Assembly (NCBI RefSeq): GCF_001420005.1
Contig: NZ_LJAK01000005.1
Coordinates: 124,001 to 188,000 of the forward strand
Length of the DNA stretch: 64,000 nt
Direction of reading: 5' to 3'
Origin: Loktanella sp. 3ANDIMAR09
GTDB taxonomy: Bacteria; Pseudomonadota; Alphaproteobacteria; Rhodobacterales; Rhodobacteraceae
The position numbers were made by a program, and so were the translations under genes. Within the stretch, counting starts at the first letter, position 1. Every line of letters starts with the position of its first letter. Positions 46,576-52,610 of this stretch are shown here, piece by piece. The notes below the pieces were generated by a model. The model saw only the letters and a program-made list of their open reading frames with translations, had not been told where the DNA came from and ran no database searches.

Positions 46576-46619
46576 TGGTGCCCCACACGGACTCGAACCG
46601 CGGACCTACTGATTACAAA
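46576..46619 (-). repeat. attL: tRNA-Thr 3'-end copy left by integration
   Basis: It repeats the 3' part of tRNA-Thr from the anticodon loop to CCA. 46581-46619 is identical over 39 bp to 52541-52579. The acceptor run has one G fewer than the real gene, so this copy cannot be a functional tRNA end. Confidence 0.9.
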
Positions 46620-46725: not shown

Positions 46726-47910
46726 ATGACACGGACATACACTGATTCTACTGACACCACACGGACACGAAATGGGGCCGTCCGCCTCACTGATAATTTG
46801 GTAAAGGGTCTCTCTGCACCAAAGACAGGCAACCGAGTCACCTACGACGAGCGTCTGCGCGGGTTTGGCGTTCGGGTGACCGCAAAGGGTAAAAAGGCAT
46901 TTATTCTCAACTATCGGATCAGTGGCCGCGAACGCCGGATAACGGTTGGCTCCTACCCAGAATGGACGCTGCTTGCCGCCCGCCGTCGCGCAGAAGAGTT
47001 GCGCCGGGACGTGGACCTTGGGATTGATCCTCTCCAGCGGCGCACAGACAAAATGAATGAACCGACCGTTCAGGATTTGCACGACCGCTACGTCTCGGAT
47101 CACCTGCCAAAGAAGTCACAGGCTTCCATCGTTGGCGATTTGCAGATGTGGAAGAAGTCGATCCTGCCCGATCTCGCCCGCCGCAAGCTGTCGGACCTGA
47201 CGTTCAACGAGATCGATGCGCTGCATCGCAAGATCACGCGGCGCGCACCCATCCAAGCCAACCGCACAATCGCATTACTGCGTAAGGCATTTAATCTGGC
47301 GATGCGCTGGGGCTGGATGAAAGCCAATCCGGCGGTTGGGATCGAAGCAAACCCGGAAAACAGTCGCACCAGGTATCTGAATGAGGACGAAATCAACCGC
47401 TTGCTTGCCGCACTCAAGTCGAACCCAAGCCGTACGTCCTGCGATGCGATCCTGTTCATGCTTCTGACAGGCTGTCGGCGCGGTGAAGCATTCAAAGCAA
47501 CATGGGACCAATTTGATGCCGACCTTCGAATCTGGACCAAACCCGCCGCCACGACGAAACAACGTAAACTGCACCGCGTTCCAGTTTCGTCTGCTGTGAC
47601 GGAACTGCTCAAGGCACGGCAGGATCGAAGCACTTCCCCGTTCATCTTTGCCTCCCATACAGGGCAAGCGCTGACAGATATAAAGAAGACATGGACCCGC
47701 ATCTGCGAAACTGCCGAACTCACCGATTTCCGGCTGCACGATCTGCGCCACACGTTTGCCAGCCTGCTTGTCTCGAACGGTCAGACCCTTCCGATCATCG
47801 GCGCAATGCTCGGTCATACACAGACGCAGACAACGGCGCGCTATGCGCATCTTTTCGATGATTCTCTGTTGAATGCGGCAGAAGTCGCCTCAGGCGCGAT
47901 CTATCGGTGA
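46726..47910 (+). CDS. Tyrosine recombinase/integrase of the element
   Basis: This 394-residue integrase has an N-terminal DUF4102-like arm-binding domain (GFGVRVTAKGKKAFILNYRISGRERRITVGSYPEWTLLAAR), a SAM-like core-binding part, and the catalytic domain. The catalytic set is Arg in LTGCRRGEAF, Lys in TKQRKLHRVPVSS, HDLRHTFASLL, His in LGHTQTQT and Tyr in ARYAHL. It is complete. The ATG at 46726 is 107 bp from attL. A 15-bp stretch at its 5' end nearly matches the core att sequence. Confidence 0.93.
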   Translation: MTRTYTDSTDTTRTRNGAVRLTDNLVKGLSAPKTGNRVTYDERLRGFGVRVTAKGKKAFILNYRISGRERRITVGSYPEWTLLAARRRAEELRRDVDLGIDPLQRRTDKMNEPTVQDLHDRYVSDHLPKKSQASIVGDLQMWKKSILPDLARRKLSDLTFNEIDALHRKITRRAPIQANRTIALLRKAFNLAMRWGWMKANPAVGIEANPENSRTRYLNEDEINRLLAALKSNPSRTSCDAILFMLLTGCRRGEAFKATWDQFDADLRIWTKPAATTKQRKLHRVPVSSAVTELLKARQDRSTSPFIFASHTGQALTDIKKTWTRICETAELTDFRLHDLRHTFASLLVSNGQTLPIIGAMLGHTQTQTTARYAHLFDDSLLNAAEVASGAIYR

Positions 47911-48220: not shown

Positions 48221-48415
48221 ATGACTGATCTGCCGTCCTCGGACGAATTTTTCACGAAGCTACAAGCTGCGGCCTATCTCGGCCTGAGCACCCGCACGCT
48301 TGATCGCCGCAATGCAGAACGCACCGGGCCTCCCCGCGTCAAGCACGGCAACAAGATTGGCTACTTCAAAACGTCGCTGATCCAATGGCTCAAGTCCCAT
48401 GAAGTACGACCTTGA
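48221..48415 (+). CDS. AlpA/excisionase-type helix-turn-helix protein
   Basis: This 64-residue protein consists of one MerR-like winged HTH (FTKLQAAAYLGLSTRTLDRRNAERTGPP, then KIGYFKTSLIQWLKSHEV). Proteins of this kind are excisionases (Xis) or AlpA activators of integrase in satellites such as P4. GGAG lies upstream of the ATG. Its place between int and the replication-type gene fits control of excision. Confidence 0.85.
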   Translation: MTDLPSSDEFFTKLQAAAYLGLSTRTLDRRNAERTGPPRVKHGNKIGYFKTSLIQWLKSHEVRP

Positions 48416-48547: not shown

Positions 48548-49699
48548 ATGAAACCGATATATTGCGGCTTCGACGGCCTCGAATTTGCTGTCAAAGCCAT
48601 CATCCCTACAGCGCTGGACGCTGCGTTAGCTAAAACAAAAGCAAGCGCGAAAGAGTTTCGTCAAGATCAATGTTATATCGCCAACGATGTCTGGCTCGTT
48701 GTAAAGGAAAGCGGTGCGCGCGGCGGCTACGCCTATTCGTGTTCTGAGGCCAACTCCGGAAACTGGTTCTTCAAGAAACCATCGCCCGGTGATGCTTGGG
48801 GTGTCCGCTTCTCTGCAGCATCAAGTGCTCTCGCTCTGCATGGCCTTGAAGGACTACGTTTGCGATGCGATGCGGTTCTCAAGGCACTTGGCATTCATGC
48901 ACCTGTCGAGGCTTACAGCCCGTCCCGCGTCGATTTTGCAATCGACTTCCTCGCACCAGACTTCGCTGTATCCCCCAAAAACTTTGTGTTGCGGTATTCA
49001 AACACTGGCACAAGCTCCCACGACATTTTTGAAGACCGCAAGACGAACGGTCGGTCTGGCCGCACGACCTCTGTGACAGTTGGCAAGATGCCAGGGCGGC
49101 AAGCCATTATCTATGATAAGCGCGAAGAGGTCATTGTTCACCGCAAGCATGAATGGCCCGCGATCTGGGGCAGAATGATTGATGGTCCACACGCGCCGCC
49201 GCTGGACCTGACGGAGCGCGCAACCTCGCAAATTTGGCGTGTTGAACTCAGATCCGGGAAAAGACACCTCAAAGATGATTGGGCCATCAATAGTTGGGCT
49301 TCTCTCTACCAAATGCTGCCCCGCGTTTTTGAAAAATTGATGGATGATCTAAGCTACTGCGCACCAACCGCAGACACCAACCGATCTCGCTGGCCGGAAC
49401 ACGACATCTGGAAGGCGGTCCGCAAAGCTGTTGCAAACGACCTGTTCACCCACATCCCAAACTTGTCGCCCGAAGACTACACAGAGGTGAAACGCGCCCA
49501 AAAGCTTGACGAGTTGGAGACGCAAAAGCTTGGCCTCAGCATATCTATCGCCGCTATCGAAGGCTGTTACGCGGAGAAGTTTGAGGCTGCGCTTACGGCC
49601 AGTGCCGCAAATATGGTCCGACGTGCGAACACAGACAAGCGCAGCCTTCATGCTCGCCTAGACGAAGCAAGGATCAAGTATGCTTATCTGAGGGACTAA
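48548..49699 (+). CDS. Rep_trans/MobT-like rolling-circle replication initiator or relaxase
   Basis: This 383-residue protein starts MKPIYCGFDGLEF and has the initiator-like pieces SPSRVDFAIDFLAPDF (hydrophobic-R-x-D-h-x-h-D), TTSVTVGKMPGRQAIIYDKREE (with a candidate nicking Tyr) and QIWRVELRSGKRHL. This order matches the Rep_trans family (PF02486), which includes pT181-type initiators, CTX-phage RstA and the MobT relaxases of integrative elements. A GC-rich hairpin lies just upstream. It may replicate the excised circle or mobilise it; the choice is an inference. Confidence 0.75.
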   Translation: MKPIYCGFDGLEFAVKAIIPTALDAALAKTKASAKEFRQDQCYIANDVWLVVKESGARGGYAYSCSEANSGNWFFKKPSPGDAWGVRFSAASSALALHGLEGLRLRCDAVLKALGIHAPVEAYSPSRVDFAIDFLAPDFAVSPKNFVLRYSNTGTSSHDIFEDRKTNGRSGRTTSVTVGKMPGRQAIIYDKREEVIVHRKHEWPAIWGRMIDGPHAPPLDLTERATSQIWRVELRSGKRHLKDDWAINSWASLYQMLPRVFEKLMDDLSYCAPTADTNRSRWPEHDIWKAVRKAVANDLFTHIPNLSPEDYTEVKRAQKLDELETQKLGLSISIAAIEGCYAEKFEAALTASAANMVRRANTDKRSLHARLDEARIKYAYLRD

Positions 49700-49973: not shown

Positions 49974-51077
49974 ATGCATATTGAGAAAATTGTCGTCAAC
50001 GGCCTCCTAGGTGTGGAAGGAGAGCGAATTATCGACGTAAATAGAGATCTTAACATTCTAACCGGAAGAAACGGTTCTGGAAAAACTACCCTAATGAAAT
50101 TAGCTTGGTTTATCATGAGCGGCAACATAATACTCGCATTGCGAGAAGTTGATTTCCAAACATGCGAGATTTTCACGAGTGAGTATCGCTGTAAGGTAAT
50201 TAGAACAGGTCCGGTTCATTGTGTCGTTGAGCTAACTCACGATCAAACGGAGTACCTTTTTGAAGATGATGGAGATGAACATAACCCGTTTGCAGAGGCT
50301 GCCGAAGATAAAGCCAATCCTGTAATTGAGAGTATTGGCAGTAGCGTCTTCTTCCCGACTTTCCGCCGCATCGAAGGTGGCTTCTCCATGCAAAAGAAAT
50401 CCACTCGTGTGTCAACTCGTACTCCAAGTCGAACGAAATCAGATATTGATGAAGCTCTTAGTAGGCTTTCGAGCACACTTGGCAATGAGGAGCACATCTT
50501 TGTATCTGCCATTTCAACTCAAGACATTGTTCAGCTTTTGCTGAAAAGATTCGCAACATTTTCGGAGGAGATTAACTCGTTTCAGACCAAAGTTTCAAAA
50601 GGAGTAATTGAAAAAATTAGGCACTACGAAGAAACTGGATCGAACCCTGTTGACGCTAGAGACTTGCTGTCTGAAACACGGAACGAAATAGAAAGTATCG
50701 AAGTCTTTCGAAAAGAGAGGATGCAGCCATTGGACGCTGTGCGTGAATTGATAGAAAAGCTTTTTCAGCACTCAGGGATCTTTTTTGGGCCTCGTTTGAA
50801 TTTTGGCGACGCCGCCGAGGCTGTCAATAGCGATGTTTTGTCTGCGGGTGAGAAGCAGATGCTTAGCTTTATCTGCTACAATGCCTTTCATAAAGATGCA
50901 GTATTTTTTATCGACGAACCCGAGCTTAGTCTACATGTCGATTGGCAGCGCCAGCTCTTCAGTATTTTGGAGAGCCAAGGATCAAACAATCAATTTATTA
51001 TCGCCACTCACTCTCCGTTTATATACGGAAAGTACCCAGATAAAGAGGTGGTTATTGGCTTCGACAGAGGTGAGTGA
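49974..51077 (+). CDS. AAA/ABC-type ATPase, PARIS AriA-like
   Basis: This 367-residue ATPase has Walker A GRNGSGKT (31-38), the signature LSAGEKQML (near 288), Walker B AVFFIDEPELSLHVDW (near 308) and the switch IATHSPFI (near 343). It belongs to the AAA_15/AAA_21 (OLD-like) group but has no TOPRIM domain of its own. That domain is in the next gene, which overlaps by 4 bp. In PARIS, AriA is the sensor that holds and releases the AriB toxin. It is shorter than my recollection of E. coli AriA. The sequence is AT-rich, so it is recently acquired. The start has weak AGAAAG. Confidence 0.8.
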   Translation: MHIEKIVVNGLLGVEGERIIDVNRDLNILTGRNGSGKTTLMKLAWFIMSGNIILALREVDFQTCEIFTSEYRCKVIRTGPVHCVVELTHDQTEYLFEDDGDEHNPFAEAAEDKANPVIESIGSSVFFPTFRRIEGGFSMQKKSTRVSTRTPSRTKSDIDEALSRLSSTLGNEEHIFVSAISTQDIVQLLLKRFATFSEEINSFQTKVSKGVIEKIRHYEETGSNPVDARDLLSETRNEIESIEVFRKERMQPLDAVRELIEKLFQHSGIFFGPRLNFGDAAEAVNSDVLSAGEKQMLSFICYNAFHKDAVFFIDEPELSLHVDWQRQLFSILESQGSNNQFIIATHSPFIYGKYPDKEVVIGFDRGE

Positions 51078-51823
51078 GTGTGAATAGTAAACTGCCACGC
51101 CCGACCGTTGATGAGCTGTTCCAATTACTCAAGCGAACTTCACTTCCGACTGTTCTTGTAGAGGGAGTGGATGATATTATCTTCTACCGTAAGATTGAAG
51201 AGGATCTAGCGCATCTCGGCTTGGACGTTCTGCCCGCTGGAAACAAAGAATCGGTGATAAAGCTTAAAGGAATGTTGAATGGTCTAACAAATGTTAGATT
51301 TGTTTTTGTTGTCGATAAAGATTTATGGATTCACGAGCCTAACACAGATTATCAAGGAGATAATACGCTCGTTCAGACCGATGGATACTCTGTAGAGAAT
51401 GACCTTTTTTGCGATGGTGAGCTCGAAAACCTTATGAGTCTTGAAGAGAAAGAGCGCTTCTATAACGACATCACGAAATTCTTGGATTGGTATGCGCTGT
51501 CGGTTAGCCGTGTACTGAGGGGCAAAGACAGTGCTTTCCGCACCCATCCGAATAAGGTGCTTGATGATCCTGATTTCTATTTAAACGAAACGAAGTTACG
51601 GGAGGGGGAAGTTTATCCTGTTGGTTTGCGAGAGGAAATTGAGCGAGATTTCAAGCGTATGCTTCGTGGAAAGTCACTTATCGCAATTTTGCAAAGACAA
51701 CTTTCAAGAAAAAATAGAGAAGTTAAGTTTAGCGGCAAGCAGCTTATTGCCTTCGGTGGCGCGCGGAGAGGCACCAATTTCATGCGATTAAGGGACTCCA
51801 TTTCTCATGTTTTTAAATTATAA
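51074..51823 (+). CDS. DUF4435 TOPRIM-like protein, PARIS AriB-like
   Basis: This protein of about 249 residues carries the DUF4435 hallmarks: VLVEGVDDIIFY (Glu30, Asp33/34), FVFVVDKD (Asp81, Asp83) and TDGYSVEND (Glu108, Asn109). These make a TOPRIM-like acidic site. In PARIS, AriB is the effector, a nuclease that cuts host tRNA when phage triggers release. GTG 51074 overlaps the ATPase stop codon; GTG 51080 has better-placed GAGG. It is the last gene of the element. Confidence 0.82.
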   Translation: MSVNSKLPRPTVDELFQLLKRTSLPTVLVEGVDDIIFYRKIEEDLAHLGLDVLPAGNKESVIKLKGMLNGLTNVRFVFVVDKDLWIHEPNTDYQGDNTLVQTDGYSVENDLFCDGELENLMSLEEKERFYNDITKFLDWYALSVSRVLRGKDSAFRTHPNKVLDDPDFYLNETKLREGEVYPVGLREEIERDFKRMLRGKSLIAILQRQLSRKNREVKFSGKQLIAFGGARRGTNFMRLRDSISHVFKL

Positions 51824-52534
51824 CACGTCGCGGGGGAACGCCGGGGATATTAGAAAGGCAAATGCTTCTATTTTATTCCCTTAATTCCCGAGGTGCGTAT
51901 TGCGATGCTTGGCAAGAATATCGGCGACGAATGGGAGCCTCTAATCATCACAGCGTTCAATTTAGAGAGCTGATCATCGCGTTATCTTGCTGTACTGTAT
52001 GTAAGACTAGCCAGCGGATAAGCTGTCTGCGTCCTGTGCTACATCCCCCCAAATTCTCATGGCGACTGTGCGTCAACTTCGGCTAGCGGTCGATCAGGCA
52101 TTAACCGCATACTTCAGTTTGCGGCGCACAGCTGCCGATAATTCGATGTGCAGCGAAGGTTCGGAATCCGCCCATCGTGTCGATCGAGCTGGCCCCGGTT
52201 TTGGTTTTCGGCTGAATGTCCGCTTTCGCGGTGTGGTCGAAATGCTTTCGCGGCCGCGGCGAACGGCAGCTCTCCGCCACAACATCAATCTTCACGCAAC
52301 TTCAACAAAACTCGGTTTCTGGAATAATAGTCGAATCCCGCTTGCCCAGACATGCAACACGGACCGCAATCGACACGCACTTCCGCCAGGTAGCCGCATA
52401 AATTTCGCTCGCGGTGCATCACGATGGCGATTTACCCACAATGAATGCCTACGGACACCAGCCGGACACAGAGGTGCATCACTCTGGCGACAACGGCACC
52501 GCATCAGCTAAGCTATTGTTTTCATTTGATGATT
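51824..52534. other. 710-bp noncoding tail of the element
   Basis: No ORF here reads like a protein; the longest, at 52059-52511, is rich in Arg and His with no domain. It holds two near-identical direct repeats, GGTGCATCAC plus TGGCGA, at 52413-52430 and 52473-52490, spaced 60 bp. They may be integrase arm sites next to attR. The left half could be decayed coding DNA. Confidence 0.5.
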
Positions 52535-52610
52535 TGGTGCCCCCACACGGACTCGAACCGCGGACCTACTGATTACAAATCAGTTGCTCTACCAGCTGAG
52601 CTATAGGGGC
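52535..52610 (-). tRNA. tRNA-Thr (anticodon UGU)
   Basis: This 76-nt tRNA includes an encoded CCA. The acceptor stem GCCCCTA pairs with TGGGGGC, the D arm is GCTCAGCTGGTAGAGC, and the anticodon stem-loop ACTGATTTGTAATCAGT has TGT at the centre. T arm GGTTCGAGTCC follows. It is the integration target; its 3' half is supplied by the element. Confidence 0.95.
52541..52579. repeat. attR: 39-bp direct repeat inside tRNA-Thr
   Basis: Identical to 46581-46619. It covers the tRNA from the anticodon loop to the acceptor stem. Confidence 0.9.

Follow-up and report, generated by a model that had tools for sequence, protein, structure and literature searches.

A compact PARIS-type gene pair as cargo of a small tRNA-inserted element in Loktanella sp. 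3ANDIMAR09

A 64,000-nt stretch of contig NZ_LJAK01000005.1 of Loktanella sp. 3ANDIMAR09 (Rhodobacterales; positions 124,001 to 188,000 of the contig, referred to below as the window and numbered from its first letter) contains two overlapping genes on the forward strand, which encode an AriA-like ATPase of the ABC/AAA type (49974-51077, ATG start, 367 aa) and an AriB-like Toprim protein of the DUF4435 family (51074-51823, GTG start, 249 aa). AriA and AriB are the two components of the phage anti-restriction-induced system (PARIS). The pair probably represents a compact PARIS-type abortive-infection system, in which a Toprim tRNase held by the ATPase would be released by a phage protein, and it is carried as cargo of a small element inserted into a tRNA gene. 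PARIS itself is already known, and the compact clade with its small tRNA-inserted carrier would be a variant of it. Among the titles and opening lines of abstracts in the open-licence literature, no description of this element family or of the compact clade was found.

Identity of the gene pair

The two open reading frames (ORFs) overlap by 4 bp (GTGA, 51074-51077). The motifs GRNGSGKT, LSAGEKQML and FIDEPELSLH are present in the translated ATPase and VEGVDD, VVDKD and YSVEN in its partner, which confirms the coordinates and all motifs of an earlier, sequence-only reading that had proposed a PARIS or PARIS-related ATPase-DUF4435 pair at this place. The closest relatives of both proteins are encoded on a Lichenicola plasmid (67% identity for the ATPase, 57% for the partner), where gene order and the 4-bp overlap are conserved. 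Differences to the Lichenicola genes at codon positions 1/2/3 amount to 0.31/0.18/0.66 for the ATPase and to 0.41/0.25/0.61 for the partner. Since order and overlap are kept and the differences follow the pattern expected of protein-coding constraint, both ORFs are, judged by these comparisons, real genes under coding constraint. The G+C content of the pair (0.43) is lower than that of the whole element (0.50) and of the remainder of the window (0.63). A scan for promoters and terminators returned a number of sites not above that of shuffled sequence.

The published MacSyFinder rule for PARIS demands a match to AAA_15 of at least 32 bits or to AAA_21 of at least 27 bits, adjoining a DUF4435 match of at least 27 bits (Rousset et al., PMC9122126). 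The window ATPase scores 54.7 bits with AAA_15 and 74.6 bits with AAA_21, the partner 34.2 bits with DUF4435, and the genes are adjacent. As all Pfam scores exceed the thresholds, the pair is a PARIS system by this rule, and the proposed PARIS relationship is borne out further by AriA and AriB being the best matches in PADLOC, profile and fold comparisons.

AriA is the top PADLOC model of the ATPase (7.2e-27) and is matched at 1e-10 by all 23 aligned ATPases of the relatives described below. Escherichia coli AriA is the best match of the ATPase in the PDB by sequence as well, and a profile of the 23 ATPases recovers it at 1.4e-31 across residues 6-440 of 464, followed by retron Ec78 at 4.1e-16. 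When the AlphaFold2 model of the ATPase (predicted local distance difference test, pLDDT, 79.8) was compared with the PDB by Foldseek, AriA chains occupied ranks 1-14 (8.3e-18 to 8.8e-15) ahead of a retron ATPase (2.3e-13). The protein is thus AriA-type rather than of the PtuA, OLD or Rad50 type by sequence, profile and fold, with a small margin over PtuA in the hidden Markov model (HMM) search; the grouping with retron or Septu ATPases that would have spoken against PARIS was not found.

For the Toprim partner, AriB is the top PADLOC model (7.5e-10), GajA is a weak match, and the OLD-like_TOPRIM family of Pfam is reached at 0.0013, below its cut-off. The partner alignment comprises 24 rows including that of the window (two rows, L006 and L026, are identical sequences), and 22 of these partners match the AriB model at 0.001. 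Used as a profile against the PDB, the alignment retrieves only E. coli AriB above noise (E 0.0039), the next entry being an unrelated protein at 1.4. The AlphaFold2 model is confident (pLDDT 91.3) and has the Toprim-like fold expected of an AriB homologue: AriB chains 8v46_D (2.5e-5) and 8ux9_A (5.3e-5) take ranks 1-2 in Foldseek, followed by the Toprim region of OLD (6nk8, 4.1e-3).

Besides the fold, the catalytic residues argue for AriB. E30, D81 and D83 are invariant in 24/24 rows, as are D34, Y105, S106, E108, N109, D110, W139, G199, K200 and L202, while R198 is R in 23 rows and masked in one. By hand count on the printed profile alignment, E30 aligns with AriB E26, D83 with AriB E90 (A at that place in the 8v46 chain) and K58, which is K or R in 24/24, with AriB K64. 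The AriB E26A mutant failed in assays, and the double change K60A/K64A abolished defence (PMC12409363). An RGKxL motif occupies residues 198-202 in the C-terminal half of the partner; a comparison with ten other DUF4435 partners did not find it there.

The PARIS of E. coli B185 (PDB 8ux9, 8v45-8v49) is the best solved match for both folds. It likewise couples an ATPase with a DUF4435/Toprim protein, its catalytic glutamate and acidic residue align with those of the window partner, and it too is found on a mobile carrier with a defence slot. In contrast, both window proteins are shorter, as had been suspected from the sequence: the ATPase has 367 instead of 464 aa, with 258 instead of 333 residues from Walker A to the signature motif, and the Toprim protein has 249 instead of 308-316 aa. 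In addition, the ATPase falls into a separate clade and the carrier is not P4.

Relatives and the compact clade

Relatives of the pair were collected from a genome scan (20 loci) and from a scan of viral contigs with an alignment (nine loci), giving 29 loci in total. A scan of viral contigs with the single partner protein returned none, and tblastn searches of a phage collection (50,697 records) with the Toprim protein or the Rep-like protein of the element returned no relatives; two plasmid records contain relatives. In 25 of the 29 loci, the direct neighbour of the partner gene is an ATPase gene in which both the signature and the DEPE motif are present (in L015, only the C-terminal part of the ATPase gene is open), and in L021 the ATPase gene lies one ORF away. 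In the three remaining loci (L009, L016 and L025), the contig starts at the partner gene or at most 400 bases from it. The intervening ORF of L021, a relative from Poribacteria (L021:5731-8834), encodes approximately 320 aa. The Toprim protein is rare: at 0.001 it was detected in 3 of 394 genomes of the host family, namely the window's own and two marginal cases, and a three-row profile detected it in 2 of 398 genomes of a phylum sample, one of them again the window's own. DUF4435 overall was found in 18 of the 398 genomes by a search that missed the window partner.

In an ATPase tree of 43 rows, 24 compact members group together with a Shimodaira-Hasegawa-like approximate likelihood ratio test (SH-aLRT) value of 98 and E. 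coli AriA falls outside, in a quick search with long branches. The E. coli sequences in the trees are aligned stretches from the PDB search only, and the ATPase tree omits loci for which poor or partial ORFs had been picked (L021, L042 and L052), loci cut by a contig start or with a shorter ORF (L009, L015, L016 and L025), L026, which equals L006, and L029. This topology supports the assignment of the window ATPase to a compact clade that excludes E. coli AriA. The records of the clade are named as alpha-, beta- and gammaproteobacteria, Pseudanabaena and Poribacteria, and are thus spread over several phyla. Its ATPases measure 366-417 aa (24 rows) and its partners 244-281 aa (25 rows). From Walker A to the signature motif, 257-306 residues are present in the compact clade; the count is 333 for E. 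coli AriA and ranges from 322 to 368 for four other two-gene ATPases (L034, L036, L050 and L051). One more, the ATPase ORF of L042, has 242 residues in this interval, shorter than the clade, and lacks DEPE. L034, with proteins of 479 and 286 aa, is a longer pair and does not belong to the clade.

The carrier element and its defence slot

The pair lies within a 6.0-kb region bounded by a perfect 39-bp direct repeat, for which the chance expectation in a 6.3-kb sequence with equal base composition is approximately 7e-17. The right attachment (att) site, attR (52541-52579), is situated inside a complete tRNA-Thr(TGT) gene on the reverse strand (52535-52610, identified by ARAGORN), the integration target, and extends from tRNA position 32, where the anticodon loop begins, in the 3' direction; attL (46581-46619) is a displaced copy of this part of the tRNA gene and is 100% identical to attR. 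Between them, all on the forward strand, a tyrosine integrase (46726-47910; Arm-DNA-bind_3 and Phage_integrase, with PF00589 at 4.9e-28, PF13356 at 7.6e-19 and PHROG 1 integrase at 1.2e-68) is followed by an AlpA-like small helix-turn-helix (HTH) protein of 64 aa, a probable excisionase or activator (48221-48415; HTH_17 at 2.5e-4, below the Pfam cut-off, and PHROG 66 excisionase and transcriptional regulator at 1.6e-6), a Rep-like protein (48548-49699) and the ATPase-Toprim pair. The ATG starts of the integrase and Rep genes were chosen inside longer ORFs. The Rep-like protein shows a weak match to PF02486 Rep_trans (0.0066, below the cut-off), 8 of the 21 aligned members of its family match PF02486 at 0.01 (best 3e-5), and a family profile matched no solved structure in the PDB; it is likely a rolling-circle replication initiator or relaxase. 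From gene content and boundaries, the pair is cargo of an integrase/AlpA/Rep-like element in tRNA-Thr(UGU). The stretch of approximately 0.7 kb that separates the pair from the tRNA gene (51824-52534) contains no recognised gene and several short ORFs, the longest of 150 aa.

No sister genome of the genus that was read has both flanks joined in an empty site; in G773, the flanks are split between two contigs, the left one stopping close to a contig end and the right one being located 2.7 kb into the other contig. The element boundary rests on the repeat and the tRNA gene. The sister genome G775 holds another element of approximately 14.8 kb in the same tRNA-Thr gene (L128, G775:C95:180000-199500), bounded by a 47-bp repeat and with an integrase that matches only distantly.

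Of 394 genomes of the host family, 32 contain the Rep-like protein, counting that of the window. Twenty stretches fetched from 42 Rep match rows, together with the window and an Amylibacter element (L008), form the element sample. Cargo was inspected in 16 of these, and six fetched stretches without a visible tRNA boundary (L085, L088, L092, L096, L102 and L103) stand outside the cargo count. The integrase is matched in 15 of the 16 elements (not in L090) and the AlpA-like protein of the window in four. A tRNA repeat is present in 14 of the 16, with copies 6.0-9.8 kb apart; the stretch of L084 lacks a tRNA and that of L099 a repeat. Of the 13 att repeats that were read base by base (L086, L087, L089-L091, L093-L095, L097, L098, L101, L008 and the window), that of L087 begins at tRNA position 31 and all others at position 32, the first in the anticodon loop; the repeat of L100 comprises the last 45 nt of the tRNA. 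The target tRNAs are Thr(TGT), Lys(TTT), Arg(TCT), Asn(GTT) and Met(CAT), and Arg(CCG) in L008; U36 is present in all of them except Arg(CCG).

The cargo slot is located between Rep and the tRNA gene. Nineteen ORFs, picked by length and by look from the 37 ORFs of at least 100 aa in 14 fetched elements, were compared with PADLOC, and 13 of the 16 elements show a match at 1e-5 or better, a count that derives from hand-selected ORFs without a background rate from random ORFs set against it; a single-gene PADLOC match is not equivalent to a complete defence system. By these matches, the window and L008 carry the compact PARIS pair, and L084 carries another, longer PARIS-type pair (L084:9139-11389; 450 + 313 aa). 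Other cargo comprises type IIG restriction (L090, L098 and L099), beta (L087), AbiU (L089), dCTP deaminase (L091), a cytosine methyltransferase matched by Druantia and type II models (L093), Dsr1 (L094), two ThsB (L095), and PDC-M36A together with PD-T4-5 (L097). No PADLOC defence match was obtained in L086, L100 and L101. The slot is occupied there by three ORFs without a Pfam or PADLOC match (L086:4072-6610), a protein of the metallo-beta-lactamase fold (L100:8382-9818) and a 1647-aa protein with RTX repeats (L101:8009-12949).

The integrase of L084 is 84% identical to that of the window but its Rep-like protein only 42%, which suggests an exchange of modules among these elements. The Amylibacter element L008, bounded by a 49-nt tRNA-Arg(CCG) repeat with 96% identical copies, holds a pair of the same clade, so that clade and element type occur together in two genera. 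With this element and Rep matches in Ruegeria and Tritonibacter replicons, the relatives uphold the earlier assignment of the carrier to the Rhodobacterales. Among the clade loci checked, only L008 has a Rep match and, consequently, the compact clade is not tied to this carrier. A tRNA of any kind was present within the stretch in 4 of the 29 relatives scanned. An integrase search in the genomes or records of 15 relatives gave 14 matches; as 14 of 14 control genomes matched as well, integrase presence in the relatives is uninformative.

The sequence-only reading had correctly placed the pair in an integrative element; the P4-type satellites that it named as known carriers of PARIS are not the type present here. 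The P4 gene set consists of the alpha primase, Psu, Sid and delta. Pfam and PHROG searches, which covered the five called element genes, found no P4-type gene, the only domains being those of an integrase, an HTH protein, a Rep-like protein, an ATPase and a Toprim protein. By gene content, the carrier is a small element type other than a P4 satellite. It shares with P4-like satellites the combination of an integrase with exchangeable anti-phage cargo, in which PARIS may be included (PMC9122126). The closest described parallel is found in the phage-inducible chromosomal minimalist islands (PICMIs) of Vibrionaceae, minimal satellites that encode an integrase and AlpA together with a replication gene and whose defence hotspot may be occupied by PARIS type I (PMC10803314). 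PICMIs encode a DUF3987/DUF5906 primase and insert in fis (PMC10803314), whereas the window element encodes a Rep-like protein without DUF3987/DUF5906 domains and inserts in tRNA-Thr, which places it outside the PICMIs. The window element is not known to have a helper phage.

The insertion site invites comparison with the target of AriB. The cut that E. coli AriB makes in tRNA falls between positions 40 and 41, in the motif U36AAUC|A41, and tRNA-Thr(UGU) is one of the two main targets of this nuclease. The att core, which covers tRNA-Thr(UGU) from position 32 onward, includes this motif, and so does the host tRNA-Lys(UUU), as read by eye from the sequence. Protection or alteration, by the element, of the tRNA that its nuclease may target was considered and rejected: the 76-nt tRNA-Thr(TGT) is identical in 7/7 sister genomes read, out of eight in the genus besides that of the window, and the two 39-bp copies are identical to each other. 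A link between tRNA choice and PARIS appeared weak, given that sister elements without PARIS use the same tRNA class and that L008 is inserted in tRNA-Arg(CCG). The integrase is enough to explain the insertion site, and a link to AriB is not supported by these sequences.

Mode of action and rival explanations

In E. coli PARIS, AriB is held by AriA hexamers and released by Ocr or Arn (PMC12409363). The gene pair, its homology to AriA and AriB, the catalytic residues, the conserved pairing, the element boundaries and restriction genes of the host are known from sequence; sequestration, release, tRNA cleavage and trigger are carried over here by analogy. Homology, catalytic residues and the conserved basic residue make the same chain of events likely: the AriA-like ATPase would assemble with ATP and keep the Toprim nuclease inactive until the ATPase is bound by a phage protein, most likely one that serves counter-defence. 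The freed nuclease would then cleave tRNA and cause abortive infection. Between hosts, the pair would move with the small integrase/AlpA/Rep element, which would enter a tRNA gene at its anticodon loop and leave that gene restored. Contig 3 of the host contains HsdM- and HsdR-type domain matches approximately 3 kb apart, and an anti-restriction trigger such as Ocr would make sense in such a host. A more far-reaching proposal, put forward tentatively, is that the compact PARIS clade has its own trigger and is carried by minimal elements that ferry defence genes and form an undescribed family within a bacterial family of the Rhodobacteraceae type; the element would supply the very tRNA half that its toxin attacks.

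Several observations weigh against the PARIS reading or limit its detail. The single partner sequence found no match in the PDB. Foldseek alignments of both proteins are gapped, with template-modelling (TM) scores of approximately 0.5-0.6 and root-mean-square deviations of 8-14, so that the fold family is secure and the details are not. The alignment column of AriB K60 contains P, A, S, I or Q in the partners and thus no conserved basic residue. A genome scan with PF14491 missed the window partner at first look, and 3 of the 24 partner rows do not reach DUF4435 at 0.01, which places the clade at the edge of the DUF4435 family. E. coli AriA has approximately 75 more residues between Walker A and the signature motif than the window ATPase; trigger binding and oligomer formation may consequently differ from E. 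coli. PtuA models match the window ATPase nearly as well as AriA (1.2e-24 versus 7.2e-27 in PADLOC) and likewise match 23/23 aligned ATPases. Finally, the deep forks of the partner tree are weak: L021, L050 and L051 group within the clade or next to it, and E. coli AriB has no firm position. The distinct clade suggested by the sequence-only reading is therefore backed by the ATPase tree and lacks confirmation from the partner tree.

The same architecture could house a different activity if the Toprim subunit were a DNA nuclease, as in OLD and Gabija, and phages were blocked by DNA cutting. The Toprim catalytic residues are common to OLD and GajA, both of which combine ABC ATPase and Toprim chemistry, and the OLD-like_TOPRIM, OLD 6nk8 and GajA matches described above point in this direction. 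However, AriB is the better match by profile, HMM and fold, and all 24 partners have a basic residue in the column of AriB K64. OLD and GajA are known to carry ATPase and Toprim in a single chain, whereas separate genes are present here and in all loci where the ATPase was seen (26 of the 29 scanned). Membership in Gabija or OLD was rejected on this ground, and DNA cutting is considered unlikely. The pair could also act as a stabilising module similar to a toxin-antitoxin system, in which the ATPase restrains a toxic nuclease that is freed upon loss of the element, with phage defence as a secondary effect. An overlapping two-gene operon at the end of a mobile element would suit such a role, and E. 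coli PARIS has been described as a toxin-antitoxin system (PMC11455837). Against this, deletion of either gene was non-toxic in E. coli PARIS, and toxin-antitoxin function was taken as excluded by the authors (PMC9122126); moreover, the same slot in other elements matches restriction, Thoeris, Dsr1 and other defence models. The chance that stabilisation is the main role is thus rated as slight.

Two further explanations were already disfavoured. Septu and retron systems combine a PtuA ATPase with the HNH protein PtuB or with a reverse transcriptase, and the closeness of the PtuA models could mean that the window ATPase is of this type, next to a merely incidental DUF4435 gene. This is hardly credible in view of the lead of AriA over the retron match in profile (1.4e-31 versus 4.1e-16) and fold comparisons, the recurrence of the ATPase-Toprim pairing across the loci, and the nature of the partner itself, which is a Toprim protein; no HNH or reverse-transcriptase domain occurs among the five scanned element genes, and membership in these systems was rejected. 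Decay into a functionless remnant, to which the reduced protein lengths and the stretch of unrecognised sequence behind the partner gene could point, is very improbable: the relatives are similar in length, the motifs are intact, and change is concentrated at the third codon position.

To our knowledge, the molecular detail of PARIS is known from one E. coli system. The compact clade, with ATPase and partner each approximately one fifth shorter, offers a natural minimal PARIS in which the parts that sense the trigger and those that choose the tRNA could be told apart. The att sites of the element family provide a simple search handle for new defence systems, and the carrier family itself resembles the P4 and PICMI hotspots for defence genes, of which it would be the equivalent in Alphaproteobacteria.

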